A stretch of DNA of 64,000 nt. Origin: Chitinophagaceae bacterium. Its GTDB lineage: Bacteria; Bacteroidota; Bacteroidia; Chitinophagales; Chitinophagaceae. The notes under the pieces were generated by a model that searched no databases, had not been told where the DNA came from, and worked only from the letters and a program-made list of their open reading frames with translations. The position numbers were made by a program, and so were the translations under genes. The stretch's first letter is position 1. Every line of letters starts with the position of its first letter. Positions 23,143 to 54,056 of this stretch are shown in pieces. Where the stretch lies: contig JAHBTJ010000005.1 of assembly GCA_019638595.1 (NCBI GenBank), forward strand, positions 248,001 to 312,000. Direction: 5' to 3'.

Positions 23143-24342
23143 CTATTCAATAAAATGTCTCAACTTATCGCTTGGCTCCGCATTAAACCAATAAATAATC
23201 TTACTATCTTCTTTACAGCGGTATGTTCCAGGCTTCTTATCGCTTCCGTAGCTTAGTACAGAAAACAGGTCGTTATTAAATAAAGATTTAGGAATGTCTA
23301 TATTATCCCAGTATGCCTCTAAAACACCTTTCAGCGTTTTAAATGGAGTGTTTTCTAGCTTTTTGTAAACGTTTCTGGCTATCCTGTATACAAATCCATC
23401 TGCCTCGCTAAACTCCTGCTCGTAGAACGGTTCTTTCATAAATTCGTAATACTCATGCCATTTTATTTCACCACCGTTGGGGTACTTTTTAAAGCAGTGG
23501 TTTATGAAGTCTTGATTAGTTTTTATTGTCTTGAACTTTTTATGATAATCATCAAAAAAAGAACTTGCGTTTGGTTGATTGATTGAGAATACTTCGCCGC
23601 CGGAATCTTGTATGTATTCTCTTGCCCAGTCTATATACGAGTAGTTTGGGGTTCTTTTAGCAGCTTCTTTGATTAAAGAGGATCCTACGGCTAACTTTTC
23701 TTTCTCGCTCATATTACCCACCTGCTTGGCGTTAAGGTGTATAAGCTCAAGCCAATAGCCTTTAACCCCCATATCCAACAGCCGGTCTACCATTTCCTGA
23801 AAATCAGCCACGGGCAGCCATTCTTCTACGAGTGGGTTAATTCCTACGGAAACGCTATGTCCTTTTGATAAAAGTTTTTCTATCAGTTCAAATCTGCTTT
23901 GTATTGTTGGTGCGCCCGGTTCGAGTTTTTTCCTTAGATCATCGTTAAGTTGTGAGATTGATACGTACCAGTGTGTTTTGTAATCTAATAGTGAAAGCGC
24001 TTCGTCTATTCCGTCGCCACCTCTGGTTTGGAAAACTATTTTATTTTCGTTTGCATTGAATAGCTCTATAAAAGAGAGTGTCTGCCTGTAGTTTGTTTTG
24101 GCAAATGGGTCAACCCTGTTAGAAAGTAGTATTGGGTATTTTTCTCTTAAAAGATAGGAGGTAAGCCCTTTGCCTTTGTTGCAATTCTTGATCTGATTTA
24201 TTGTCGCTTTTACATCAAGCGTTCTGCCTGGTTGGTTCAGGTTAGCGAAGCACACGGCGCATTTATGCGAGCAATAATTCATACTCATCTCCAAAGGAAT
24301 GGGGGATATTGTAAACTCCCCCGCATACGCACTTATAGACAT
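23143..24342 (-). CDS. SPL-like radical SAM enzyme
   Basis: A 399-residue protein whose ATG at 24342 follows the ParB stop with no gap, so the two are coupled. C24, C28 and C31 form the CxxxCxxC cluster site (YCSHKCAVCF) for a 4Fe-4S centre that cleaves S-adenosylmethionine. Downstream blocks match the spore-photoproduct-lyase-like branch: LLSNRVDPFAK near residue 72, a QTRGG strand near 105, VSISQLNDDLRKKLEPGAP near 125, then SVSVGINPLVEEW near 165. This branch includes DNA repair and nucleic-acid-acting enzymes. The gene lies between ParB-fold protein and terminase in the late operon. Substrate unknown; DNA is a guess from neighbours. Confidence 0.8.
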   Translation of the reverse strand: MSISAYAGEFTISPIPLEMSMNYCSHKCAVCFANLNQPGRTLDVKATINQIKNCNKGKGLTSYLLREKYPILLSNRVDPFAKTNYRQTLSFIELFNANENKIVFQTRGGDGIDEALSLLDYKTHWYVSISQLNDDLRKKLEPGAPTIQSRFELIEKLLSKGHSVSVGINPLVEEWLPVADFQEMVDRLLDMGVKGYWLELIHLNAKQVGNMSEKEKLAVGSSLIKEAAKRTPNYSYIDWAREYIQDSGGEVFSINQPNASSFFDDYHKKFKTIKTNQDFINHCFKKYPNGGEIKWHEYYEFMKEPFYEQEFSEADGFVYRIARNVYKKLENTPFKTLKGVLEAYWDNIDIPKSLFNNDLFSVLSYGSDKKPGTYRCKEDSKIIYWFNAEPSDKLRHFIE

Positions 24343-24906
24343 TTATTCCAGTGTTTTGTAGGTGAACAATTGCTTAAACGCCTCCGTATCGGTTCTTATA
24401 CCATTCTCTTTTTTGTATAGCTGAAAATCTTTGTATTCTTTCGCGTTTAGGATAATTGATAAGGGGTATATTCCTAGCGGCCCGCCCTGTTCTTCCTCTT
24501 TTTCGGGGAACACACCCAATTCTTGAACGTCAATATTGTATTCTTCTACTGCAACTTCCTGTATCTTTTCTTCATCCAGTCTTATATTGTGCTTGGCTAC
24601 GGTGTTTGCTAATAGGGCTGCGGTGTGGAATTGCGCTGTATTGCTTTTAATATCCTTTCGCTTAATAATTATAGGGCGCTTGCCATCCGATTCAACTATA
24701 ATAGGCTCAATGCCATCAAACTTTTGGTTCATAACCTCTTGGCGGGCATTGCCTGATATAATTTTATCGTCCGCTGATACGGTGATGCTTTCTATTACTC
24801 CCACCTGCTCGACAGACTTTTCCAATAATGACATTCCTAGTTGAGAATGTTTGTTGAAATTCTTTTCGTCTGGCTGAAAGTCGGTTAATTTAATCCTCTT
24901 TGACAT
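24343..24906 (-). CDS. ParB/sulfiredoxin-fold nuclease-like protein
   Basis: A 187-residue protein from ATG 24906. The first 95 residues are a ParB N-terminal domain: KLTDFQPDEKNFNKH, then LLEKSVEQVGVIESITV, then the catalytic-type loop SGNARQEV (residues 51-58, the GxxR of ParB). The remainder is a helical extension ending near KEEEQGG and a further strand-helix region. There is no HTH of chromosome partition ParB. Such single-domain ParB proteins are common in phages, frequently beside DNA methylases. Here the partner is a radical SAM enzyme. It is the first gene of the late strand with a candidate promoter 34 nt upstream. Confidence 0.8.
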   Translation of the reverse strand: MSKRIKLTDFQPDEKNFNKHSQLGMSLLEKSVEQVGVIESITVSADDKIISGNARQEVMNQKFDGIEPIIVESDGKRPIIIKRKDIKSNTAQFHTAALLANTVAKHNIRLDEEKIQEVAVEEYNIDVQELGVFPEKEEEQGGPLGIYPLSIILNAKEYKDFQLYKKENGIRTDTEAFKQLFTYKTLE

Positions 24907-35558: not shown

Positions 35559-36110
35559 ATGACAAAGAAAAAACAACATGCTAAGGAACCGGAAGAGAAA
35601 AAGCCATTCATCATTCTGAATGCAAAAGTTAAAGAAGGTATCTGTGAATACAGCTACGAAATCAATTCCGGCCCCTGCGAAGGAGACCAGGTAAAAGGTC
35701 GGAAAGGAATCAATATTGTACATGATGATCTTACTGATGCATTCAGTAAGCTGGATGTTCACCTCGCTATACTGGATGATGCTTTTATTGATCAGGAGCT
35801 GTCATTGGAAGAAATGGAGAAAGAAACGAAATCTTTCAGGGTATACGGATTCAGGGTAAGCGGCACAGATGAGAATGAAGGTTTTATATTGAGCGGAGAA
35901 AAATGGGTGAAATATGGAAGTGTAGGTATTGACTCTCCTAAAATAACTAAAGCAAGCGCATATCCCTACTGGCAGGAACTCTGTGATGCAATGGAAGCAG
36001 CTCGTAACGAGGTACAGGGTTATATGAATGGGAAATCAGCACCTAAGATGGAACAAACAGAAATCAACTTTTCCGCACCAGGAGGTGATGACTTTAATAA
36101 TCCCATGTAA
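35559..36110 (+). CDS. Phage replication-region protein, hypothetical
   Basis: A 183-residue protein from ATG 35559. Acidic, with an N-terminal K/E tail, then a beta-rich section (KPFIILNAKVKEGICEYSYEIN, FRVYGFRVSGTDEN) and a C-terminal segment MEQTEINFSAPGGDDFNNPM with an acidic tip. The layout (OB-like strands then an acidic tip) resembles a single-strand binding protein, but no match can be claimed. Its stop overlaps the helicase start. Confidence 0.5.
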   Translation: MTKKKQHAKEPEEKKPFIILNAKVKEGICEYSYEINSGPCEGDQVKGRKGINIVHDDLTDAFSKLDVHLAILDDAFIDQELSLEEMEKETKSFRVYGFRVSGTDENEGFILSGEKWVKYGSVGIDSPKITKASAYPYWQELCDAMEAARNEVQGYMNGKSAPKMEQTEINFSAPGGDDFNNPM

Positions 36111-38392
36111 TGTTATTTGCACCAGAACAATTAGCCACCAACACGTTTACACCCCGGCCATACCAGACCGGAGCCATAGATGCTGCTGTTAATTTCTTCA
36201 ACGGACAGTGTAAGGAGCATGGGCTCGTAGTGCTCCCGACAGGAGCTGGGAAAAGCATCGTTATTGCTAATATAGCAAAAGAGCTGGAGGGCAATACTAT
36301 TGTGTTTCAACCATCAAAGGAGATACTGGAGCAGAATTATGCGAAATTTATCAGCTATGGTTACCGGGCATCCATATACAGCGCCAGTGCAGGGCAAAAG
36401 AAGATTGATAAGATAACATTTGCCACAATTGGGAGCGTCGCAAAAAAACAACACCTTTTTAAAAATTATCGAAACATTATTGTTGATGAATGTCATCTCG
36501 TTAACAGCAAAACCAAGACAGTTAAAGAAAATGATGGCAGTGAGATTGTTAAGGGTGGAATGTATTACAGCTTTTTTGAAGCGATTGAAGATTGCAGGAT
36601 CCTGGGACTTACTGCTACTCCATACCGCTTAAGCACAGGAATGGATGGGGCTATGTTAAAATTTCTAACCCGGACCAGGCCAAAGACATTCAGCGATGTA
36701 TTATATGTAGTTCAAACCAGGGAACTATTTGCTGCTGGTTACCTGGCTAAGCTTGAATACTTTTCTTTTGATACTATAGATAGAAAAATGCTGAGCCTGA
36801 ACAGCACTGGTTCTGACTTCACAGAAGCATCGCTAAAAGCTTACTACAGAAAAATAAATTTTCCAAAGGTTACAGCTTACTGGGCTAACAGGATCATTGC
36901 CAAGCGCAAAAATCTTTTGATTTTCTCAACAATGATTTCCGAAGCATACGAAGCAGCCAGGCTCATACCTGATGCTGTTGTGCTCACTGGAAAGACAGAA
37001 ACGCGGCAAAGGGAAAGGATACTTAGTGACTTTAAGGCCGGCAGGATCAAGGTACTGGTTAATGTTGGTGTGCTCACGACAGGGTTTGACTTCCCTGCTC
37101 TGGAGGCAGTATTAATAGCAAGAAGTACAATGAGCCTGGCACTATACTATCAAATGTGCTTGGACATGGAAACAGAAGTGCTGACAAAAAGAGGTTTTTT
37201 AAAACATGGTGAAATAAACGTAAGTGATGAGGTGGCAGCATATATTAAAGAAACCGGAGAAATTAAATGGACTTCCATCAAAAATATTATTCATAGACCA
37301 ATAGCGAAAGAAGAATATTTTATACAATATAAAAATCAACATTTAGATTTCAGAGTGACAGATAATCATGATATGATTTTCAGAGCAAGAGGTGCAAAAT
37401 CATATAGAAAAGATAAAGCAAATGAAATGATGAATTTGAATTGTATGATAGATGTTCCTGTATCTGCAAAGGAGATTATTGATGATACTGATATATCCGA
37501 TGACCAGTTATTGTTTCTTGGGCTGTTTTTATCTGATGGCTCATTAAATAAAGTGAACAATACAATAAATATAGTTCAATCTGAGAATTATCCACTACGA
37601 CTGAACGTTATTGAGGATTGTTTAAAAAACTGCGGTTTCAAGTTTGGTAAATGTATTCGGGTAAGAAAGGGTAACGAATCAAAATATTCAAACATGGTTC
37701 ATTATAGCATTTCACACGGAATGCCAAGAGGGAAAAATAAAGATAAAACAGGATGGAGCGTACTTGAAAAATGGATTAATAAATCAATGAATGACAATTA
37801 TAACCTCTTGAGTGAAAGGCAATTTGAAATTCTTCTTAAAGGGGTAAATCTTGGAGATGGGCGTAAATATCAATCAACAGATTATAAAGTATCTACCATG
37901 ACAATAGCAATGGGTATTAATAAAACTTATGCTGATAATTTCCAAAGCCTATGTATTCGACGTGGCTATAGGGCGAATATGTCGATTATAAAAAAAGAGG
38001 GATTCAAAGATCAATATATTCTGAACATAAAAAAAATATCAAAATCCACAATCGCTGGTAATAATATTTCCGACAAAAAAATACTGAACAGGTCTTTCAA
38101 GAGAACACGAATGGAGAAAGTCAGAGGTGCCGGAGAGAATGTTTGGTGTATCGAAAATGAAATTGGGACAATAGTAACCAGACGTAACGGGAAAGTTATG
38201 ATGACTGGAAATTGTGGCCGCGCTATGAGGCCGCATCCGGATAAAGAGAGCGCCTGGATCGTGGATCTTGGCGGCAATATCAATTTTTTTGGCAAAATAG
38301 AAACGTTAAATGTTACCCGGAATAACCGCGGATTATGGGTTGTCACCAACAATGGCAGACAGCTCACGAATGTAAACTTTACAAAATCTTAA
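36110..38392 (+). CDS. Superfamily 2 helicase interrupted by an intein
   Basis: A 760-residue open frame from ATG 36110 (TAATG overlap with the upstream gene). The helicase part has Walker A LPTGAGKS (residues 42-49), DECH (126-129), GLTATP near 172, and TTGFDFP near 325. Residues 350-701 are an intein placed inside motif VI, so that splicing joins YYQM to CGRAMRP and restores QxxGRxxR. The spliced helicase is 408 residues, a short DEAD/DEAH-type enzyme likely acting in replication fork or recombination. Without splicing, motif VI is split and the ATPase should be inactive. Confidence 0.88.
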   Translation: MLFAPEQLATNTFTPRPYQTGAIDAAVNFFNGQCKEHGLVVLPTGAGKSIVIANIAKELEGNTIVFQPSKEILEQNYAKFISYGYRASIYSASAGQKKIDKITFATIGSVAKKQHLFKNYRNIIVDECHLVNSKTKTVKENDGSEIVKGGMYYSFFEAIEDCRILGLTATPYRLSTGMDGAMLKFLTRTRPKTFSDVLYVVQTRELFAAGYLAKLEYFSFDTIDRKMLSLNSTGSDFTEASLKAYYRKINFPKVTAYWANRIIAKRKNLLIFSTMISEAYEAARLIPDAVVLTGKTETRQRERILSDFKAGRIKVLVNVGVLTTGFDFPALEAVLIARSTMSLALYYQMCLDMETEVLTKRGFLKHGEINVSDEVAAYIKETGEIKWTSIKNIIHRPIAKEEYFIQYKNQHLDFRVTDNHDMIFRARGAKSYRKDKANEMMNLNCMIDVPVSAKEIIDDTDISDDQLLFLGLFLSDGSLNKVNNTINIVQSENYPLRLNVIEDCLKNCGFKFGKCIRVRKGNESKYSNMVHYSISHGMPRGKNKDKTGWSVLEKWINKSMNDNYNLLSERQFEILLKGVNLGDGRKYQSTDYKVSTMTIAMGINKTYADNFQSLCIRRGYRANMSIIKKEGFKDQYILNIKKISKSTIAGNNISDKKILNRSFKRTRMEKVRGAGENVWCIENEIGTIVTRRNGKVMMTGNCGRAMRPHPDKESAWIVDLGGNINFFGKIETLNVTRNNRGLWVVTNNGRQLTNVNFTKS
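37157..38212 (+). mobile_element. Intein with LAGLIDADG-type homing endonuclease
   Basis: 352 residues from Cys350 (CLDMETEVLTKRG, block A) to Asn701, followed by Cys702 of the extein. Block B is RVTDNHDM (residues 415-422) with the T-x-x-H pattern. Two DOD endonuclease helices are seen: LLFLGLFLSDGS (467-478) and LLKGVNLGDG near 580. The last block ends NGKVMMTGN, so the usual penultimate His is Gly. That variant is known from some phage inteins but can slow the last step. The insertion site is the codon-conserved helicase motif VI. AT content is higher than in the flanking extein. Confidence 0.88.
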
Positions 38393-38393
38393 A

Positions 38394-39458
38394 ATGAAAA
38401 AAGTTACAGTAAAATCAGAACTGATAAAAAAAGCTTTGTCGAAGCTTGGTGCAGCTGTGAATAATAAAGTTATACCTGCGCTGGAAAATGTTTATTGCAA
38501 GGTGGAAGGTAGTACGATTGCTCTTACCACATGCGATACTGAAATGTTGATTCGCTATAACCTTATGGCCGAATCGGACGGGGATGGAGAATTCTTTTTG
38601 AGCTTTCACCTGTTTAATAGCATCGTGAAGTTATGTAAAGAAGAAGTGATTGAATTTGAGCCGCTGAAAGCATCTGTAAAAGTAAAAATCGGGAAAGATG
38701 TCTATACTTTGAAGTTCAATGCGAAGCTTGAAGATTTTCCTAAATTAAGTGAGGCGCCTTCACAGCATGAGGTTGAATTTGATGACAGATTGATAGCTAT
38801 GATGGTGGCTGCAACAGAATCTGCCAGCAAGTCCGAAACTGATCCGAGATTGGCTCGTATTTGTCTCAATATTAATTACACTGGTACTGACATTGTGGGC
38901 ACTGATAGTTATATTCTATATAAATACAATTCTCCGGCAGAGTTAAAAGTTACTACTTCCTTATTGCTTTCTCCACGAATGGTAAAGGCTATTGATGGGC
39001 TGGAACAGATTGTAATAAAATGGAATGATTCTAAATTTAGTTTCTCCACGCCTGAGATCCTGATAGTTATTAACAGACCGGAATTTAAATATCCAAACTA
39101 CCTGGGTATAATACCAAACCATGAATCTAACCTGAAGATCAGCCGATCTGCATTGGTTGAAACATTTAAGAAGCTCAATATTTCCGAAACCAAAACATCT
39201 GCTCTTCATTTACTATCAGATGCGATCAAAGCCGAAGTTGAAGATAAAGCTACAGGAGTAAAAATCAATGCCGAAGTGGATTGTATCTATAGCGGCCAGG
39301 TGACTGATATTTCATTAAACGCGGCCGATATTCTAAGATTATGCCACCAAACAACTTGTGAGCACCTTGAGCTGGCAATTCATAGCCCGAACAAAGCTGT
39401 TGTAGTTCGAGGTGAAGATCCTAACTACCTGGCATTAATAATCCCAACTTTTAAATAA
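38394..39458 (+). CDS. Beta sliding clamp (DnaN-like)
   Basis: A 354-residue protein from ATG 38394, one base after the helicase stop. It has three similar beta-rich domains of about 115 residues (first: VIPALENVYCKVEGSTIALTTCD; second: PSQHEVEFDDRLIAMMVAAT; third: LKISRSALVETFKKLN), ending PNYLALIIPTFK, the position of the clamp C-terminal strand. Length fits DnaN (about 366). It would encircle DNA and tether polymerases. No phage DNA polymerase is seen in the window, so it must serve the host enzyme or one encoded elsewhere. Confidence 0.8.
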   Translation: MKKVTVKSELIKKALSKLGAAVNNKVIPALENVYCKVEGSTIALTTCDTEMLIRYNLMAESDGDGEFFLSFHLFNSIVKLCKEEVIEFEPLKASVKVKIGKDVYTLKFNAKLEDFPKLSEAPSQHEVEFDDRLIAMMVAATESASKSETDPRLARICLNINYTGTDIVGTDSYILYKYNSPAELKVTTSLLLSPRMVKAIDGLEQIVIKWNDSKFSFSTPEILIVINRPEFKYPNYLGIIPNHESNLKISRSALVETFKKLNISETKTSALHLLSDAIKAEVEDKATGVKINAEVDCIYSGQVTDISLNAADILRLCHQTTCEHLELAIHSPNKAVVVRGEDPNYLALIIPTFK

Positions 39459-41080
39459 TGACAACTCAACAATTGCTGCAGCAATGCACCATCGACAATA
39501 ATATCGTCCTGCTTCCAAATATCAAACTGGAAAGAAAAGAATACATGGAAGTGAAGAAAGCTCTTGAGCTAATTGGGGGTAAGTGGAAGGGAGGTAAAAC
39601 GCAAGGGTTTGTATTTGAACAGGATCCAACAGAACTGCTGCAGGCACAGGCCAGTGGTGAACAGCGGAATCTGAAAAAGGAATACCAGTTCTTTCCAACG
39701 CCGCCAGCAGTAGCAAAAATGATGATGGAATGCCTTCCTGAAGTGAAACCCGGCTACAAAGTGCTGGAGCCTTCCGCAGGTGATGGAGCACTCATAAAAG
39801 CTTTTCATGACCAGATTGGTCATATCGGGCGGGAAGTTGATTGCTTCGAGCTAATGGATGTGAATCGAATAAAGCTTAAATCCATTAAGGGGGCCAACAT
39901 CATTGGTGAAGATTTTATGGAATGTAAAAAGTGGGATGAGTATGATCTGGTAATTGCAAATCCGCCCTTTACTAAAAACCAGGATATAGACCATATTGGC
40001 AGAATGTTCAAGGTATGTAAACCATCCGGCTTAATAATAACACTTGCCAGTGGGTCCTGGAAGCATGGCTCACAAAAGAAGCATAAACAGTTCAGGGAAT
40101 GGCTTGATAACATGGTCACTACAGAAGAGGAAATTCCGGCCGGAATGTTCAAGGAATCTGGTACGATGGTTTCTACAATCCTATTACGAATTGTGAAACC
40201 ATTATATGCCGGTGACCTCCCATGGGAACGCCCGGAAACATTTACTGTTTCTTCTCCTGAATTACAAAAACAGGCTGAAAAATTTATTGCAAACCGGTTT
40301 TCTTCCACTGAGGCCAATAGCAATATAGCTGAGGATGAGCCTATTACAGAATTAGTGGGCGAAGCACAGACAGAAGAAAGTGAAAATCTCCCAGAACGTA
40401 AATGCCGTGTTTGTGGCTGCACTGATAATGATTGCCGGCAATGTATAAAGAAAACCGGGAAACCATGCCATTGGGTGGAAGAAGATCTGTGCAGCGCCTG
40501 TGTAACTCGTGAACCGGAGGAAATTTTGAAGGATATAAAACAGAGCATGAAAGAAGCTGATAAAACCTTCAATGAACTTGAGAAAATGCTATCACCAAAA
40601 AATAACGATATGAATTTTTTTGAACAGTTGTCAAATGCCGGATCGGTTGATATTACTCTTCGCATTATGAAGAAAAATGAAAAGCTTACGGTAAATGTAA
40701 TGCCTGGCTCTGGTCAGTCGGTCACTCAGCCGATCATTATAACCGGCACCCCGCAGGATCTTGACGCTGAGTTTTTCAATACGCTATATCCGCAAGTGGA
40801 AGAAGTGACAGGCATCATTCATAACATTGAAAGGGTGAAATCCCAGGCAATTGATAGAAAAGAAAAAAGTGAAAAGAAGCCTGCCGAAACCAACCCACCC
40901 AAACCATCCGCTCCACAAAAAAAGGCAAAGGAAAAGGCTGATAAGAAAGTTAATGTTAAGGCGAAAGAACCTGTAACGGAACGGGCCAACCTATTTGAGG
41001 AGGATAATACCCAATCGTCAACCGATCAAACTGATTCCAATGACACAGAAACAAAAAAAGATGATGGAGATACTGATTAG
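39458..41080 (+). CDS. Adenine-specific DNA methyltransferase fused to a PRTRC-E-like domain
   Basis: A 540-residue protein from ATG 39458, overlapping the clamp stop (TAATG). Residues about 75-260 are an N6-adenine methyltransferase: SAM motif LEPSAGDGAL (103-112) and catalytic NPPF (168-171), preceded by FFPTPPAVAK. Residues about 315-350 form a Cys-rich finger (CRVCGCTDNDC, CxxC near the end). Residues about 385-470 fit PRTRC system protein E (MNFFEQLSNAGSVDITLRIM, then IIITGTPQDLDAEFFNTLYPQ), followed by a K/P/E-rich tail. The next genes are other PRTRC members. Likely self-modifies phage DNA; the role of the E domain is unknown. Confidence 0.75.
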   Translation: MTTQQLLQQCTIDNNIVLLPNIKLERKEYMEVKKALELIGGKWKGGKTQGFVFEQDPTELLQAQASGEQRNLKKEYQFFPTPPAVAKMMMECLPEVKPGYKVLEPSAGDGALIKAFHDQIGHIGREVDCFELMDVNRIKLKSIKGANIIGEDFMECKKWDEYDLVIANPPFTKNQDIDHIGRMFKVCKPSGLIITLASGSWKHGSQKKHKQFREWLDNMVTTEEEIPAGMFKESGTMVSTILLRIVKPLYAGDLPWERPETFTVSSPELQKQAEKFIANRFSSTEANSNIAEDEPITELVGEAQTEESENLPERKCRVCGCTDNDCRQCIKKTGKPCHWVEEDLCSACVTREPEEILKDIKQSMKEADKTFNELEKMLSPKNNDMNFFEQLSNAGSVDITLRIMKKNEKLTVNVMPGSGQSVTQPIIITGTPQDLDAEFFNTLYPQVEEVTGIIHNIERVKSQAIDRKEKSEKKPAETNPPKPSAPQKKAKEKADKKVNVKAKEPVTERANLFEEDNTQSSTDQTDSNDTETKKDDGDTD

Positions 41081-41318
41081 TGGTGGATGCATCAGCGCCG
41101 GCTATCGCGTGCTTGATGAAAACCGCAATCCGGTGATGAAAATATCATCTGAAACATTCAAAAATTATAAATACCTGTTCCGAAAGTCCGGTATTGTCTA
41201 CCTGATCAATAAGTCGAAAGTCAGGCAGGAGCATGGGAATTCATTTATTAAAAAACAGTATAAAAATTTATCAAATGGCATTAGAAGTAACCAACCTGGA
41301 ACGGGAGTTCAGGTTTAA
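41040..41318 (+). CDS. Small protein between PRTRC-E and PRTRC-C, hypothetical
   Basis: A 92-residue protein from ATG 41040, overlapping the methyltransferase end by 41 nt; a second in-frame ATG at 41064 would shorten the overlap. Basic, with YRVLDENRNPVMKISSETFKNYKYLFRKSGIVYLI in the middle, a small winged-helix or strand pattern. Its 3' end overlaps the PRTRC-C gene by 44 nt. Resembles in size and style the neighbour 41498-41755. Function unknown. Confidence 0.5.
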   Translation: MTQKQKKMMEILISGGCISAGYRVLDENRNPVMKISSETFKNYKYLFRKSGIVYLINKSKVRQEHGNSFIKKQYKNLSNGIRSNQPGTGVQV

Positions 41319-41496
41319 AAAAGATGGTACGGAAGTAAAGCTTCCTGATCCGAATCCGGAATTCACTACCAATGAGGTTTTGCAATTTTATTCGGGACAA
41401 TACCCGGAGCTAACTACCGCTACATTGGAAGGTCCAAAAACAGATGGCACAAAAGCGGTGTATTCTGTAAAAACCACTATCGGCACAAAAGGTTGA
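41275..41496 (+). CDS. PRTRC system protein C, ubiquitin-like
   Basis: A 73-residue protein from ATG 41275 (MALEVTNLEREF). PRTRC-C is the short family that Pfam describes as prokaryotic ubiquitin-like. It has the beta-grasp order: strand REFRFKKDGTEVKL, then PNPEFTTNEVLQFYSGQYPEL, then TATLEG, then AVYSVKTTIGTKG. It ends in a single Gly rather than Gly-Gly, so conjugation would need a variant tail or it acts as a bound partner. The E2-like and E1-like genes follow in the same operon. Confidence 0.75.
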   Translation: MALEVTNLEREFRFKKDGTEVKLPDPNPEFTTNEVLQFYSGQYPELTTATLEGPKTDGTKAVYSVKTTIGTKG

Positions 41497-41497
41497 G

Positions 41498-41755
41498 ATG
41501 AGGCGAAACTTCGAACAAAATAAAAAGCTTATATCAGACTTGATTCAGCCAAGGCTCAACAAGCTGGGTGTAATCAGGACCAGTAACGCCTGGAAAATCT
41601 GCAAGGGCGACCCTTCGCTACCATATAGCTCTGTTGCCTTTCATTTTAAAGTTATTATGATGAAAATGGTGGAAGAGGGTAAAGCTGACCGTATCTGCGG
41701 AGGTGTTTATTTCATTCATAAAAATTCTTTCAGTGAAAAAGAAACCAGACTTTAA
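41498..41755 (+). CDS. Small PRTRC-linked protein, hypothetical
   Basis: An 85-residue protein from ATG 41498, one base after the PRTRC-C stop. Winged-helix-like pattern: RNFEQNKKLISDLIQPRLNKLGVIRTSNAWKICKGD, then a hairpin AFHFKVIMMKMVEEGKADRI and GGVYFIHK. It could bind DNA. It sits inside the cassette and may be specific to it. No named family. Confidence 0.5.
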   Translation: MRRNFEQNKKLISDLIQPRLNKLGVIRTSNAWKICKGDPSLPYSSVAFHFKVIMMKMVEEGKADRICGGVYFIHKNSFSEKETRL

Positions 41756-42931
41756 AAAAACATGCCGAAAACAATTAACCATACAACAACTTCACGAAGA
41801 GCTCGGAGAAATATTTCAAAAAGAAATATCAAAAAAAGATCTGGACGCAAGATTTGCACAAGAAAGGCCCAGGCAGTTGCCCCCGTCATTGCAAATTCCA
41901 TATTTGCCTTAAAGCTGACGCCGATCCCGGGCGTATTCGTTGAGCAAAAAGTAAAACGAAGGAGAAGAAACAGCTGGGAGATCGAAGATGATTACGAGAA
42001 AATGTATTATGATCTTTTTGCAGCTTATAAAAATTATTGTCATCTCCTGGGTAAGGATGCGGTAGTGATGGATCCTTTTAAAAACGGCATTGATCTGAGT
42101 AAGTCATTATATCTCCTTACCGGACGCATCAAAAATATTGTGCCTAAAGGCTTTGATTTCAATATTGACCGACAGGGGGACAATTATTGCATCACAGTTA
42201 TGAAGGCGCTTGACCTTGAAAACCGCTGGCATTTTTTCAATATCGAGCCGGTGGTGAAATTTCTTAAAAAGAAAGACGAAGTACTACATGACCTGTTCCT
42301 GTCAGCTATAGCAATATTGTCTGCAACAGATATACAAACATGGTATGATTGCAGCCTATACGCCTTAGATGTGATGATGGATGAGTATAACATTATGGAT
42401 TGGATTGAATGCCGGATAGAGGATGAGTCGGAAGTGGAAAGAATGATGGTTGAAATAAATATCCTGCGCAATAGCTATCAAAAGGGTGAGATATATGCTT
42501 ATCAAAGACGAATCGGAAATTCCTTTATGAGTCCAGTATTACTGGAAATGAAAACCAGGAAATTAAATGTGCGCAACCCAATCAAAAAATGGATACTTAA
42601 GGTGGCGGCAATGGCAAAAGAAGGCTTTCGGCTGAGAGACTTTATTTACGAAGGGATTAACGAAGAATATGGCGAAGGAGCTATTCGGCTGGAAGACCAG
42701 ATTACTATTTTATGGAGTGATAAGGATTTTGTTTTTGATGTGACTTCGGAAGTAATTGATAATGAAGCTGCAAATTTTGGCGTGCAGTCTCCGGTTTATC
42801 ATTTCGCTATTGATGAGCAGACAAAGCATATTCCTTTTGAAAATATGAGTAATGCGCAAAGGTGGATTAATGATATCGAAGAATTATTCAACAGTTACCA
42901 GGACGTGCTAAAATATATAAAATATGAATGA
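41733..42931 (+). pseudogene. PRTRC system protein F-like, split by a -1 frameshift
   Basis: Read as one gene, it starts at GTG 41733 (KKKPDFKKTCRKQLTIQQLHE) and stops at TAA 41910-41912 in frame 1. In the -1 frame the same coding sense continues without a break to 42931 (LTPIPGVFVEQK...NAQRWINDIEEL). Around the junction, residues QIPYLP of the first frame and LKLTPIPGV of the second join neatly if one T is added at CCTTAAAG. No classic slippery heptamer is present. The 60 residues that the second frame adds upstream are basic nonsense (RRARRNISKRN). So it is either a point mutation, a sequencing error, or an unusual recoding site. Position and length (about 400 residues) fit PRTRC-F. Confidence 0.6.
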
Positions 42932-43631
42932 CAGAACCGATTTACTCCTCAGCGAATACAAGCCATCAGTAGTAATCATGGTGTATAAGGGCGGGCATAA
43001 CAAATATTACCTGGAAAGTCATGATGTAAATGGTCGTGGTGAGATACTTGCCGGCAAACCGCTGCTGCAGGAAACCCTGCAGGCAGTAGTAGATGTGTTT
43101 TTTGATGAAAGAAAGAATAGAACGGCTATCGGCGGCATTATGCCTGATAATTTGCTCCACTTCTGTCATCTTCCAGGCGGCAATTACCGGATGATCTGGT
43201 TTAGACCGGAGGAGCAGCGTGTTATCCACCACGCAGAATCTCTTAAAATCAAAACCGGTATTACTTCTGTGCCGGCGCTTATCTATAGGGTTAGCGGTGG
43301 TGATCTTGATGTTTTTGCCTTAAAGGCCAACAAAAGGCCTGATGAAAAAACAAAGTTATTTGTCGCCCCATTTTTTAATGTATCAAATGATGGAGGTGTC
43401 TGTCTAGGTAACGCTAAAGTAGAGAAACCAAAGGTGCTCACTTTTTCAAACCTGATAAAATATTGGGAGGATCTTTTCTGGCTTAGCGAGTTCAGCCATG
43501 TCAACGGAAATGAAAAAGTAAAATCAGGAGACCTGACAAAGATTTGGCGATCACTTGTCGGTGCAAAACAGAAGTTTCCAAAAGAGGAGCTGATGCCATC
43601 TGAAGTAACAATGAAAAATATTATAGCATGA
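42924..43631 (+). CDS. PRTRC system protein B, E2-like (UBC-fold)
   Basis: A 235-residue protein from ATG 42924, overlapping the previous gene by 8 nt. PRTRC-B belongs to the family Pfam treats as prokaryotic E2-like. The key site is visible: FFNVSNDGGVCLG (residues 150-162) with Cys160, matching the HPNV...G-x-[VI]-C-L active-site pattern of ubiquitin-conjugating enzymes. Upstream, the strands RVIHHAESLKIK and VPALIYRVSGGDLDVFAL form the expected meander. Next gene is E1-like. It would accept a PRTRC-C or similar modifier as a thioester. Confidence 0.78.
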   Translation: MNDRTDLLLSEYKPSVVIMVYKGGHNKYYLESHDVNGRGEILAGKPLLQETLQAVVDVFFDERKNRTAIGGIMPDNLLHFCHLPGGNYRMIWFRPEEQRVIHHAESLKIKTGITSVPALIYRVSGGDLDVFALKANKRPDEKTKLFVAPFFNVSNDGGVCLGNAKVEKPKVLTFSNLIKYWEDLFWLSEFSHVNGNEKVKSGDLTKIWRSLVGAKQKFPKEELMPSEVTMKNIIA

Positions 43632-44392
43632 TTCATTATACTGCTCCATATTTGTTGAACCCGCAACACAGGATCACCATTGACCTGATCGGATGCGGAG
43701 GCACTGGAAGCCAGGTGCTCAGTAATCTCGGTAGAATGAATTATGCCCTGGTGGGCCTCGGTCATCCGGGACTGCAGGTTAAAGCCTGGGACCCTGATGT
43801 GGTGACCTCATCAAACTCAGGACGGCAACTCTTCTCTCCCTCCGACCTCAACCAGAATAAAGCTGCCGTGCTTGTTACCCGTGTAAACAGATACTATGGC
43901 ACTGAATGGCAAAGTGAGCCGTATTATTACTCTGGCCAAGGTGAGGAATATAGTAATATCACCATTAGCTGTGTAGATACAGTTGCAGCTCGACTGGATA
44001 TAGATCAGCAGCTTCGTCATCCGGTAGCAGCAAAAACTGAACAGCCATTTACTAAATTATATTACTGGCTGGATTTAGGCAACCTTAAAAAGACAGGTCA
44101 GGCTGTTCTCGGAACTATTGGATCAATACCGCAGCCAAAAGGACAGAAAAGCAAAGCCACCTTAAAAAATGTCGTGAAACTTTTCCCGCAGATGAAAAAT
44201 ATAAAAGATGAAGATCAGGGACCATCTTGCTCACTGGCAGAGGCACTACAGGGTCAAGATTTGTTTATCAATAGCACCCTGGCTCAGTTCGGGTGTGACC
44301 TCTTATGGAAGCTCATCAGGGAAGGCAGCATCCGCTATCACGGCTGTTATGTCAATCTTGAAACCATGACTGTTAATCCGATTAAAATTTAG
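43628..44392 (+). CDS. PRTRC system ThiF/E1-like adenylating protein
   Basis: A 254-residue protein from ATG 43628, overlapping PRTRC-B by ATGA. The N-terminal Rossmann loop GCGGTGSQV (residues 23-31) binds ATP, and WDPDVVTSSNSGRQLFSPSDLNQNK (residues about 57-81) contains the conserved D and the R/N/K of the E1 adenylation site. ISCVDTVAARLDIDQQL near 118 follows the E1 family. A C in GPSCSLAEAL near 200 is the candidate thioester Cys. It should activate the PRTRC-C C-terminus. No JAB-type peptidase (PRTRC-A) is in the window. Confidence 0.82.
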   Translation: MIHYTAPYLLNPQHRITIDLIGCGGTGSQVLSNLGRMNYALVGLGHPGLQVKAWDPDVVTSSNSGRQLFSPSDLNQNKAAVLVTRVNRYYGTEWQSEPYYYSGQGEEYSNITISCVDTVAARLDIDQQLRHPVAAKTEQPFTKLYYWLDLGNLKKTGQAVLGTIGSIPQPKGQKSKATLKNVVKLFPQMKNIKDEDQGPSCSLAEALQGQDLFINSTLAQFGCDLLWKLIREGSIRYHGCYVNLETMTVNPIKI

Positions 44393-47926: not shown

Positions 47927-48347
47927 TAATAAGGGAAACCGACCGATAAAATACCGGGGTAAAACAGTGGGAGGCGATTGGGTTTTTGGAAACTATTCCC
48001 ACTTAAAAAAAGATTTTTCAACTATAAAAGCCGGGCATTACATATCAAATTCTGTCGGTGCGCCATTTGCTTTTCTTGTCCGACCCGAAACAGTAGGGCA
48101 ATATACCGGAATGAATGACGGTAAAGGAAAAGAGATATTTGAAGGCGACATACTCGCAGTTAAGGACGAATATGGAAGCTATGTATTTGCTGCCGTAAAA
48201 TGGGGTGATGATTACCCAGCCTTTACCCTTCATCCTAAAATCGATGATGAGTATTATAACAGCTTACAGCACGCAGTTTTGGTTTGCGGTTGTAAAATTG
48301 TAGGAAACGTATTTGAAAGCCCTGAATTGCTTAACAACAATGAATGA
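47910..48347 (+). CDS. YopX family phage protein
   Basis: A 145-residue protein from ATG 47910. Matches the YopX family layout: RPIKYRGKTVGGDWVFGNY near the N-terminus, FLVRPETVGQYTGMNDGKGKEIFEGDILAV in the middle, and a C-terminal strand VCGCKIVGNVFESPELL. The family is spread through phages of Firmicutes and Bacteroidota; its function is unknown. Its stop overlaps the next start by ATGA. Confidence 0.85.
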   Translation: MRNENNNKGNRPIKYRGKTVGGDWVFGNYSHLKKDFSTIKAGHYISNSVGAPFAFLVRPETVGQYTGMNDGKGKEIFEGDILAVKDEYGSYVFAAVKWGDDYPAFTLHPKIDDEYYNSLQHAVLVCGCKIVGNVFESPELLNNNE

Positions 48348-48916
48348 TCTACGCATATTATAAACAAAAGCTAAATACAATGACAATACAACAACTACAA
48401 CAGTCGAACCTGCATGAAATTATAAAACATGCAAAAGATTTTGCAATAAAATTACACTCAGATGTAAATCATAAATATGATGGCTTAGATTATTCAACTC
48501 ATTTGTACATGGTTTATGATACTGCCTGTCAATTCAGCCATTTGTTACCAGTAGAAATTAAAATCGAGGCTTTAGCATCCGCGTGGACACATGATTTAAT
48601 TGAAGATTGCAGGGTTACATATAATGATATTAAAAGAGAATTTGGGGAAACAATTGCAGAAATAACTTACGCCCTTACCAACGAAAAGGGAAGAAATAGA
48701 AAGGATAGGGCAAACGAAAAGTATTACGAAGGAATTAGAAATACACCCGGCGCAACTTTTGTAAAATTATGCGATAGAATGGCTAATGTATTGTATGCAA
48801 GAATTGAACATACAAGTATGTACAATGTGTATAAAAGAGAGAACGAAGATTTTTGTTCGCATCTATATACCCCCGATTTACAAGAAATGTTTACCTACTT
48901 AAAAAAAGCAGTTTAA
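48344..48916 (+). CDS. HD-domain small alarmone hydrolase-like protein
   Basis: A 190-residue protein from ATG 48344 (ATGA overlap); an ATG at 48380 is an alternative. The HD metal site is visible: H53 (STHL), H83-D84 in WTHDLIED, and D144 in KLCDRMANV, with YNDIKREFGETIAEI in the SpoT/MESH1-like spacing. Length equals stand-alone (p)ppGpp hydrolases and it lacks a synthetase domain. It could lower alarmone levels during infection or counter toxic nucleotide synthesis; the substrate was not tested. It lies within small accessory genes. Confidence 0.72.
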   Translation: MIYAYYKQKLNTMTIQQLQQSNLHEIIKHAKDFAIKLHSDVNHKYDGLDYSTHLYMVYDTACQFSHLLPVEIKIEALASAWTHDLIEDCRVTYNDIKREFGETIAEITYALTNEKGRNRKDRANEKYYEGIRNTPGATFVKLCDRMANVLYARIEHTSMYNVYKRENEDFCSHLYTPDLQEMFTYLKKAV

Positions 48917-52196: not shown

Positions 52197-52406
52197 ATGA
52201 GCGATATAAAAATAACTCAGGATGTGCAAAATGAAGAATGGCTTACGATAAGGGAAGCTACAATATTTATAAAATGTGAATCTAAGTCAAGCTTATACAA
52301 ATATTGCTCCCTCAACAAGATTCGAAGAACCAAAGTGTTGAGGAAAACTTTGGTATCCAAAGTTGATTTAAAACGAGCGTTGGAGAGAAATGCTATTGTT
52401 GTTTAG
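52197..52406 (+). CDS. Excisionase-like HTH protein
   Basis: A 69-residue protein started at ATG 52197 (MSDIKITQDVQNEEW). Pattern EEWLTIREATIFIKCESKSSLYKYCSLNKIRRTKV is the MerR/HTH_17 winged-helix layout used by phage excisionases. It is the last early gene, runs into the integrase on the other strand with a 14-nt 3' overlap. Position and fold suggest directionality factor for the integrase. Confidence 0.6.
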   Translation: MSDIKITQDVQNEEWLTIREATIFIKCESKSSLYKYCSLNKIRRTKVLRKTLVSKVDLKRALERNAIVV

Positions 52407-53754
52407 GCTTAAGATTTTTTATATCAGTTTTTTCTAACATTTTTTTATGCCCCCTTGCTTTTATTTTTGCAACATGCCTATCGTATTTTGAAAGCATTTT
52501 AATTCCTGAGTGTCCAACCATATCCTTTACAACATACTTATCTATTCCCTCGGCAAGTAGGTTGGCAATAAAGGTACTGCGACCAACATAAGGTGTCACA
52601 TCGGTATATTCAATGCCTGCTATCTCGAATAAAACCCGCAGATGATAAATTTCATTCGATTCGCTAGTAATACAATCAAAGAATCCTGGTTGTGATTTAA
52701 AGAAGTTGTATGCCTCTACAGCAAAAGGCAACAAAGTAACTCCGTATTTTTTGTTATTTTTGGTTCTTCCTTTGTATAAATAAACAAGACCATTTTCAAC
52801 CTCATCAAAATGCTCTCTTTTAATACTCTTTACTTCTTTATAACCGGTGCCGGAGCCAGCCATAAACAGGAAAAAGTATTTTGATCTTTTAAGCGGTGGG
52901 CTCAATTTTTCATTATCCATTCCCCAGATGATTTCAATGTCATCGAATCCGACCGGCTCCCTGTCCGAATCATCAAAAACCCCGATTAATCCATGTCTAA
53001 TAGGCACATGTTTTATTAATCCCAATCCCCCTTCTTGTATTGGCAGCGCCGAAAAATTCATTACGGCCCGGAGCTTTGATAAATATGTTTTTATCGTATT
53101 AGGAGATAAAGTGCCGCCTTCTGGTTTCAATCTATTTTTGGGTTGCTTAAGCAGGAATGACTTAAATTCATCTGTATCATTTATAGAAATTTCAGATACC
53201 AGAACGCTGTCTTTTTTATACTTTTCTTGCCAAAAACTCTTTAAAAACCTAACCGTAATGTCATATTTTAGCTTGGTGTTTTCAGACATTTCACCTGTAT
53301 GTTGTTCATAAGAGCCAATATACGCCTTTGTAACTACTGAAAACTCGTGCTCCTGTAGTACGCTTAACTGCGATTTGTATATCTGTTTCCTAGATTTACG
53401 ACCGGTAATAGCCGGTTTGATACCGATCTCAACCTCTTTTATTATCGTTGCTAAATCCGTCTCCCCATTCCCCAACAGTCGTTGTAGATATTGCCTTATT
53501 AACAACCTGGAATCGTCAATCTTTTTATTGTTCAGGGCAGCAATGCCATTATTCCCTTTTACATAATAGCCATCCCACGATTCTTTGTTACACATTATTC
53601 CAAGTCCGGCGGTCACTCTTTTATTCGTGAGCCAGATATTGTTCAAGGCAAACTCAAATCTGAAATATATTTCTATAATTCCCTTTTTTGTTTTATGTTT
53701 TTTTGAATAAAGAGTGTACCTTACTATAACATTTCCCAGATGTTCAAGTGACAT
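52393..53754 (-). CDS. int: Tyrosine recombinase integrase (Bacteroidota type)
   Basis: A 453-residue protein started at ATG 53754 (MSLEHLGNVIVRYTLYSKKHK); the frame is open to 53889, but the extra 45 residues cross the inverted repeats. N-terminal Arm-binding, then SAM-like core-binding (about residues 110-260), then catalytic domain. In the catalytic domain the first Arg is missing: the expected TGLR region reads GSGTGYKEVKS. R in PYVGRSTFIANLL, H in DMVGHSG and the nucleophile Y in SKYDRH are present. Loss of the first Arg is known in some Bacteroidota recombinases. It faces the tRNA-Leu, the likely attachment site. Confidence 0.85.
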   Translation of the reverse strand: MSLEHLGNVIVRYTLYSKKHKTKKGIIEIYFRFEFALNNIWLTNKRVTAGLGIMCNKESWDGYYVKGNNGIAALNNKKIDDSRLLIRQYLQRLLGNGETDLATIIKEVEIGIKPAITGRKSRKQIYKSQLSVLQEHEFSVVTKAYIGSYEQHTGEMSENTKLKYDITVRFLKSFWQEKYKKDSVLVSEISINDTDEFKSFLLKQPKNRLKPEGGTLSPNTIKTYLSKLRAVMNFSALPIQEGGLGLIKHVPIRHGLIGVFDDSDREPVGFDDIEIIWGMDNEKLSPPLKRSKYFFLFMAGSGTGYKEVKSIKREHFDEVENGLVYLYKGRTKNNKKYGVTLLPFAVEAYNFFKSQPGFFDCITSESNEIYHLRVLFEIAGIEYTDVTPYVGRSTFIANLLAEGIDKYVVKDMVGHSGIKMLSKYDRHVAKIKARGHKKMLEKTDIKNLKPKQQ

Positions 53755-53771
53755 AAGTACGGTTTTTTGAA

Positions 53772-53854
53772 GTAGGGAATAAATGTAGAAGAAAAATATC
53801 GGAATTAAGTTCCCTACATCGAAAAGTCCGCCATCCAACCGCCAATTTTCGATG
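53772..53854. repeat. Two interleaved inverted repeats near the prophage end (candidate attachment-arm sites)
   Basis: GTAGGGAA (53772-53779) pairs with TTCCCTAC (53810-53817), and CATCGAAAA (53817-53825) pairs with TTTTCGATG (53846-53854). Both are perfect. They lie between the integrase start and the tRNA-Leu. Such repeats are typical of arm-type integrase sites and may flank the crossover core. A TGTAC/GTACA pair at about 53872-53887 is a possible third. The exact attR core cannot be set without the left end. Confidence 0.45.
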
Positions 53855-53937
53855 AATTTCCACGGTCTTTCATGTACTACTATGTACACTTCCTATTTGT
53901 TATAAGAAACCATTGGTATTGATTTACAACTAAATAT

Positions 53938-53968: not shown

Positions 53969-53972
53969 ATTG

Positions 53973-54056
53973 TGCCCAGAACAGGAATCGAACCTGCACA
54001 TTGTTGCCAATACCAGATTTTGAGTCTGACGCGTCTACCAGTTCCGCCATCTGGGC
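53973..54056 (-). tRNA. tRNA-Leu(CAA)
   Basis: Reverse strand folds as a class II tRNA: acceptor GCCCAGA with TCTGGGC, anticodon loop CTCAAAA giving CAA, long variable arm and T loop TTCGATT. 84 nt; CCA is not fully encoded. Its 3' end faces the prophage, the usual orientation for an integrase target, so attB probably overlaps the 3' half. Host gene. Confidence 0.93.

Follow-up and report, generated by a model that had tools for sequence, protein, structure and literature searches.

The stretch of DNA analysed here (the window, 64,000 nucleotides) represents bases 248001-312000 of contig 45 (C45 in this analysis) in the 7.06 Mb genome of a Chitinophagaceae bacterium. It carries a tailed prophage with a PRTRC gene cassette, which includes genes for a ubiquitin-like protein (Ubl) and for E1-like and E2-like partners. 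The core families of PRTRC are known mainly from plasmids; judged by sequence, the cassette described here is a phage variant of this core without JAB and ParB, in which the C, B, ThiF and E proteins each belong to their respective families. Most likely, it is a working, one-way Ubl conjugation module that serves the phage. We lean towards the view that this module, encoded in what appears to be an early replication operon of the tailed phage, tags some phage or host protein and in this way helps the element to replicate or to maintain itself.

Family assignment and genomic location of the cassette

PRTRC comprises the families TIGR03734-03742 and corresponds to the operons that Iyer, Burroughs and Aravind described in 2006 as type 6d (PMC1779556). 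Family membership and gene order were established directly. The preliminary description of the window had already assigned C, B and ThiF to PRTRC families, and both the coordinates of these genes (Table 1) and the assignment were confirmed, each protein scoring above its curated TIGRFAM cut-off. C reached 68.7 bits with TIGR03738 (cut-off 45.95) and 86.6 bits with PF14454 (Prok_Ub), and ThiF reached 250.9 bits with TIGR03736 (cut-off 144.75) and 37.3 bits with PF00899. B passed narrowly, with 136.7 bits against the cut-off of 131.45 for TIGR03737, and gave 136 bits with PF14460 (Prok-E2_D). Two members had been overlooked, namely PRTRC-E, which is fused to the upstream methyltransferase (TIGR03741, 42.8 bits, cut-off 37.95; PF19556, 48.7 bits), and a gene in the F position. 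The proposed hidden Markov model (HMM) search thus placed C, B, ThiF and E above the TIGRFAM cut-offs but gave no match to the curated PRTRC-F model, TIGR03742. The F-position protein is only weakly related to the PRTRC-F profile (hhalign probability 34.8% across 70 columns); its family was found in many related loci, and the gene occupies the place that F has in other cassettes. The fusion of methyltransferase with E was present in 5 of 160 related loci (L013, L015, L038, L094 and L095).

As a whole, the cassette has C, B, ThiF and E of the PRTRC set and lacks JAB, D and ParB. The absence of A (the JAB protein), D and ParB noted earlier was extended for the first two to the entire genome: neither A (TIGR03735) nor D (TIGR03739) had a genome-wide match, 14 control genomes being equally silent for both, and the A model does detect A of the Burkholderia phage BgVeeders33. 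For ParB (TIGR03734), nothing exceeded the cut-off of 278.6; a single match of 103 bits was found at C45:115096, outside the prophage. No JAB gene is fused or adjacent to the cassette itself. The only occurrence of Prok-JAB in the genome is within a host E2-E1-JAB protein of the 6A-MBL type on contig 34 (L003, 385-2667; C34), which matched NF058523 with 598 bits (cut-off 320).

The prophage location, also proposed in the preliminary description, was established directly. Genes for terminase, portal, virion and tail proteins are situated to the left of the cassette on the minus strand, and attachment repeats enclose it. The left copy of the repeat, an identical 19 bp, lies outside the window at C45:236672-236690 and was found by blastn (700 bp against 45 kb, E 6e-4). 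From repeat to repeat, the element measures 65,316 bp and contains the cassette. On this sequence evidence, the element is a real tailed prophage carrying the cassette. The DNA of B-ThiF was absent from all 57 other genomes searched, 11 of which were of the same genus.

Conservation of catalytic residues and predicted structures

Active-site conservation was determined directly in alignments of 184 distinct ThiF rows, 164 distinct B rows and 130 C rows. In ThiF, the position of Cys201 (within GPSCSLAEA) is occupied by Cys in every row but one, which has a gap (183/184); the ATP-loop glycines are kept in 181/184, and R66, K78 and D117 in 182/184. The Cys motif of canonical E1 enzymes is PxCT. 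Since the motif around Cys201 resembles it, this residue is the probable thioester Cys. Among PDB entries, a profile of six ThiF proteins matched UBA1, UBA6, NEDD8 E1, UBA5, Cap2 and ThiF, all matches being confined to the adenylation half and the best having an E of 4e-6.

In B, P149, N152, C160 and G162 are invariant (164/164), and H192 is kept in 151/164 rows; the earlier choice of Cys160 as the active-site position was correct. The spacing of Asn152 and Cys160 recalls the HPN motif of E2 enzymes, in which Asn lies eight residues upstream of Cys. A conserved downstream His in the E2-like protein is mentioned in the passages of PMC1779556 on type 6d operons. The predicted model of B (pLDDT 91.3, pTM 0.75) shows by eye a UBC-like order of strands, Asn-Cys loop and helices. 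In a fold search of BFVD, B had three matches with E < 0.001, all of them phage proteins without known function. The model of the F-position protein (pLDDT 86.5, pTM 0.80) is mostly helical, and its PDB profile search returned chance-like matches only.

The single Gly at the C terminus of C had been taken as a possible sign of different chemistry; it proved instead to be the norm of the family, as Gly73 is kept in all but one of the aligned C rows (129/130). Among the C proteins of loci without A, 107 of 136 end exactly in GTKG.

JAB and the C-terminal tail of the Ubl

The base set for this comparison consisted of 168 loci; no A was found in 149 of them (some loci being incomplete), and A was present in 19. 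The loci without A include annotated Bacteroidota plasmids, and the lack of JAB is no peculiarity of this phage. The following relation between JAB and the tail of C was observed directly. C was recognised in 136 of the JAB-less loci, and every one of these C proteins (112 distinct sequences) stops at the conserved terminal residue, which is Gly in 135 cases and Ala in one. In the JAB-bearing loci, all 18 C proteins extend past the conserved Gly, with a tail of at least 48 residues where the motif was correctly read; the C ends of the JAB-bearing loci L082 and L090 are of the tailed kind. Plasmids added eight JAB-less cassettes without a tail (Pelobacter, Deinococcus, Alteromonas, Marinobacter, Pseudomonas rhodesiae, Thiodictyon, Vibrio and Aeromonas), three with JAB and tail (Cupriavidus, Manganitrophus and Ahniella), and three with JAB but no tail (Sphingobium, Sphingopyxis and Aromatoleum). 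In total, 144/144 JAB-less cassettes are without a tail and 21/24 JAB-bearing ones have it; no tailed C was found among the 144. These counts leave out the base loci without a C match (13 JAB-less and one JAB-bearing), the plasmid loci L207, L210, L211, L212 and L215 without a recognised C, and L317, which has no A or B in its stretch and a C ending in KTKG.

The pattern fits a JAB protein that matures a Ubl precursor where a tail exists, as far as the sequences indicate. The rows are related, and a tree of 83 rows requires 3 changes for A and 4 for the tail. According to the passages of PMC1779556 on type 6d operons, a JAB domain is always fused or neighbouring in them.

Occurrence on phages, plasmids and chromosomes

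Carriage of the cassette by phages is recurrent and less rare than the preliminary description implied when it assigned PRTRC mostly to other elements. With a six-sequence ThiF profile (A1), 197 IMG/VR stretches with a ThiF relative were found, and the best 80 of these 197 were used for the viral counts. The window ThiF alone, tried earlier as a query of the viral contigs, gave no match and was replaced by this profile. The window ThiF groups with seven viral contigs (L013-L017, L019 and L033; support 97/96), whereas a smaller tree contained no such supported group. Ten of 64 long open reading frames (ORFs) from six viral contigs were scanned for phage genes: terminase was found in L016 and L045, a head gene in L014, a tail fibre gene in L015, portal and tail genes in L019, and an integrase alone in L033. 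A search of 50 viral loci out of the 80 with a terminase family, phrog_38, matched 6 records, the family being too narrow to judge by.

In a phage collection, three records matched the window ThiF, one of them the Burkholderia phage BgVeeders33 (OK665841), in which A, B, C, E and F are each above their curated cut-offs and ThiF is also present. Its ThiF is annotated as 'dinucleotide-utilizing enzyme' and the remaining cassette genes as hypothetical. Together with BgVeeders33 (L007), 15 IMG/VR contigs (L078-L092) have a PRTRC set including JAB.

In the phylum of the window, ThiF exceeded the cut-off in 16 of 395 sampled genomes, and a ThiF relative was present in 372 of 72,556 plasmid records. 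On many of the plasmids inspected, cassettes stand beside ParB genes. The genome of the window itself holds a second, divergent E-C-F-B-ThiF cassette on contig C5 (L005, 7638-11176); since genes for an SSB-like (single-stranded DNA-binding) protein and other small genes are nearby, this is probably another mobile element. A Tunicatimonas plasmid has, at a distance of about 7 kb from the PRTRC cassette, a second ubiquitin-like set (L012, 15059-17259; a multiubiquitin protein, a ThiF-family protein and DUF6527), and a Deinococcus plasmid (L203, 1004-6666) has two B-ThiF pairs in tandem behind one C. At G277:C1:1280488-1281267, a PRTRC ThiF gene is interrupted by three internal stops and likely belongs to a decayed cassette.

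Comparison with related systems

As far as PRTRC and type 6d systems are described in the literature passages on them, the window cassette shares with them a Ubl with C-terminal Gly, ThiF, E, and a B protein in which a Cys and a His downstream of it are conserved; the protein encoded between C and B resembles theirs in position and in its mostly helical model. It differs in having no JAB, no D and no ParB above cut-off, in the fusion of E to a DNA methyltransferase, in its carriage by a phage and in an F protein outside the curated model. The order E-C-F-B-ThiF without A is also that of plasmids from Parabacteroides (NZ_OY725769) and Tunicatimonas (NZ_CP120684), and their C proteins end in GTKG, as in the window, or in GIKG; in these Bacteroidota cassettes, however, E is stand-alone and the setting is a plasmid. 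With BgVeeders33, the common feature is a PRTRC set within a phage; in that phage, A, B, C, E and F all exceed the cut-offs, C is tailed and, as annotated, the tail genes are of the Mu type. Bil, Bub, type II CBASS and 6A-MBL, in the part of PMC13373217 considered, follow the same Ubl/E1/E2 logic but consist of other families and fusions. The system-specific E1-E2 or JAB partners of Bil, type II CBASS and 6A-MBL were not matched by C, F or B in PADLOC, and ThiF gave only weak E1-E2 matches.

Gene order and other genes of the prophage

From the clamp gene through ThiF, the intergenic gaps run from -86 to +6 bp, the genes overlapping or abutting, and these eight genes therefore look like a single operon (Table 1). 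The clamp gene starts 1 bp 3′ of a RadD helicase gene and overlaps the start of the methyltransferase-E gene. The small ORF between E and C overlaps the genes on both sides, and its start position is putative; the one between C and F had no family match in the curated HMM, Pfam and PHROG searches.

Table 1. Features of the cassette and of the prophage right end, in positions of the window
Feature	Position	Strand	Basis
DnaN-like sliding clamp	38394..39458	+	PF00712 46.2 bits; TIGR00663 87.8 bits (below cut-off 137.65)
DNA methyltransferase with C-terminal PRTRC-E domain (residues ~386-504)	39458..41080	+	PHROG methyltransferase families; TIGR03741; PF19556
Small ORF between E and C	40995..41318	+	phmmer matches in five viral loci (L013, L015, L017, L033, L038)
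PRTRC-C, ubiquitin-like, ends IGTKG, without tail	41275..41496	+	TIGR03738; PF14454; alignment
Small ORF between C and F	41498..41755	+	open frame, tightly packed
F-position protein, mostly helical model	41762..42931	+	family built from related loci; model; profile comparison
PRTRC-B, E2-like (Asn152, Cys160, His192)	42924..43631	+	TIGR03737; PF14460; conservation; model
PRTRC ThiF, E1-like (Cys201)	43628..44392	+	TIGR03736; conservation; PDB profile matches
Tyrosine integrase of prophage	52393..53889	-	PF00589 34.1 bits; phrog_1 80.9 bits
Right attachment repeat, 19 bp	53969..53987	.	3′ end of tRNA-Leu 53972-54056 (-)

The RadD-like helicase (36110-38392, 760 aa) has an intein-like insertion within its YYQ...GR motif, and a PADLOC homing-endonuclease model matches residues 429-510; the insertion is missing from the relatives in L013 and L015, whose length is about 385-392 aa. 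The gene at 48344-48916 gave a weak match (about 30 bits, far below cut-offs) to the N-terminal part of RelA/SpoT and possibly encodes a phage alarmone hydrolase. Beside the terminase genes, a Radical-SAM-like protein (23143-24342; weak match of the Rv2578c/PA0069 type) adjoins a gene that is ParB-like by eye (24343-24906).

Proposed pathway and alternative explanations

From the features described above, we infer that conjugation occurs, in which direction and on what kind of target, and we propose the following course. ThiF would adenylate Gly73 at the C terminus of C and then hold C as a thioester on Cys201. Next, C would be transferred from ThiF to Cys160 of B, with Asn152 eight residues upstream, and B would attach it to a protein, F and E being possible adaptors. 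Because C would be synthesised already mature and the cassette includes no JAB to process or remove the tag, tagging would be one-way. To our knowledge, PRTRC and type-6d systems have no known function, and none is stated in the literature passages on them. A role in the replication or maintenance of the element is suggested by replication genes adjoining the cassette here and by ParB or replication genes beside it on many of the plasmids inspected.

Several points weigh against this proposal. The evidence for a replication or maintenance role is one of gene neighbourhood. The relation between JAB and the tail depends on 2-3 changes of A across trees, and the independent-pair tests, which were underpowered, had 2-3 pairs on supported branches, a median p of 0.5 and no possibility of reaching 0.05. 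JAB activity could also be provided in trans by a host protein. Foldseek listed no UBC protein for B among 50 of 506 PDB matches, the PDB profile searches detected neither an E2 among the matches to B nor a beta-grasp protein among those to C, and none of 51 B proteins matched the classical E2 family of Pfam. The E2 identity of B is thus based on family curation and the active-site pattern, to which the structural search adds no support; with low TM-scores in every row, the fold searches may be uninformative. Finally, the F-position protein had no usable fold match in the PDB and is of no known fold or function.

A more specific reading, which we regard as improbable, is that the adjacent sliding clamp is the target, the modification being a phage analogue of SUMO or ubiquitin attached to PCNA. 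In 20 of 80 viral loci, the distance between a clamp gene and a cassette gene is at most 300 bp, and in 24 it is at most 2.5 kb (one of them, L073, by a weak 26-bit match); the clamp label changes 14 times on the tree (27/94 rows), and plasmids of Cytobacillus and Aeromonas also have dnaN next to the cassette. In the majority of the viral loci, however, no clamp is in reach, and among 80 genome loci a clamp is present in only 6, some being the same elements as viral loci. Moreover, among 80 viral contigs picked by a RadD relative, a clamp was present inside the locus in 18/76 without a cassette and in 3/4 with one (Fisher p 0.053), all four cassette-bearing records already being within the main viral set. 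This control weakened the clamp as a special partner of the cassette, and a shared replication module may explain the adjacency. In the phage collection, the window clamp as query matched 11 of 50,697 records in an insensitive search. On an Aeromonas caviae plasmid (L315, 1-980), dnaN is immediately upstream of the cassette, as in many viral loci. It is equally doubtful that a tailed-phage lineage built a JAB-free, one-way system with a mature tag into its replication operon for modifying replication proteins such as this clamp.

It is somewhat unlikely that the phage tags host proteins, for example, parts of Ubl or CBASS-type defence, and disables them during infection. This counter-defence role, raised in the preliminary description, gains from the 6A-MBL anti-phage protein encoded by the same genome and from the early-type character of phage cassettes, but the PADLOC matches were weak and confined to ThiF, the cassette is equally common on plasmids and chromosomal elements, where such a purpose is less obvious, and it lies among replication genes rather than small accessory anti-defence genes. 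We give little credence to the converse, in which the lysogen turns the cassette on other phages or incoming elements, as reported for Bil. Ubl conjugation does serve bacterial defence in Bil and CBASS (as far as covered in the part of PMC13373217 considered), and the passages of Iyer 2006 (PMC1779556) on these operons speculated on guarding against invasive replicons; yet the defence-family signal is confined to those weak E1-E2 matches of ThiF, and the cassette is situated within a plus-strand replication operon, unlike a separately expressed moron. Most improbable of all is sulfur-carrier or peptide-adenylation chemistry, in which ThiF would activate a ThiS/MoaD-like C for modifying a small molecule or nucleotide, perhaps with the methyltransferase. 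The ThiF domain and the beta-grasp family are also used in such reactions, and E is fused to a DNA methyltransferase, but every complete cassette seen has, next to ThiF, an E2-like B in which Asn and Cys are invariant, and none of the cassette genes was recognised as one for sulfur transfer.

With regard to the conjugation module as such, the relation between JAB and the tail predicts that the tag is born mature where JAB is absent, and conjugation would then possibly be irreversible. Neither a virus-encoded Ubl-E2-E1 pathway acting in bacteria nor the carriage of PRTRC cassettes by phages was described in the open-access titles and abstract beginnings searched, a scope that did not extend to preprints and most subscription journals. 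With the cassette-bearing phages, among them BgVeeders33 with its deposited genome, phage growth can serve as a test of the function, and, if active, the cassette would represent a virus-encoded Ubl-E2-E1 pathway operating in bacteria.

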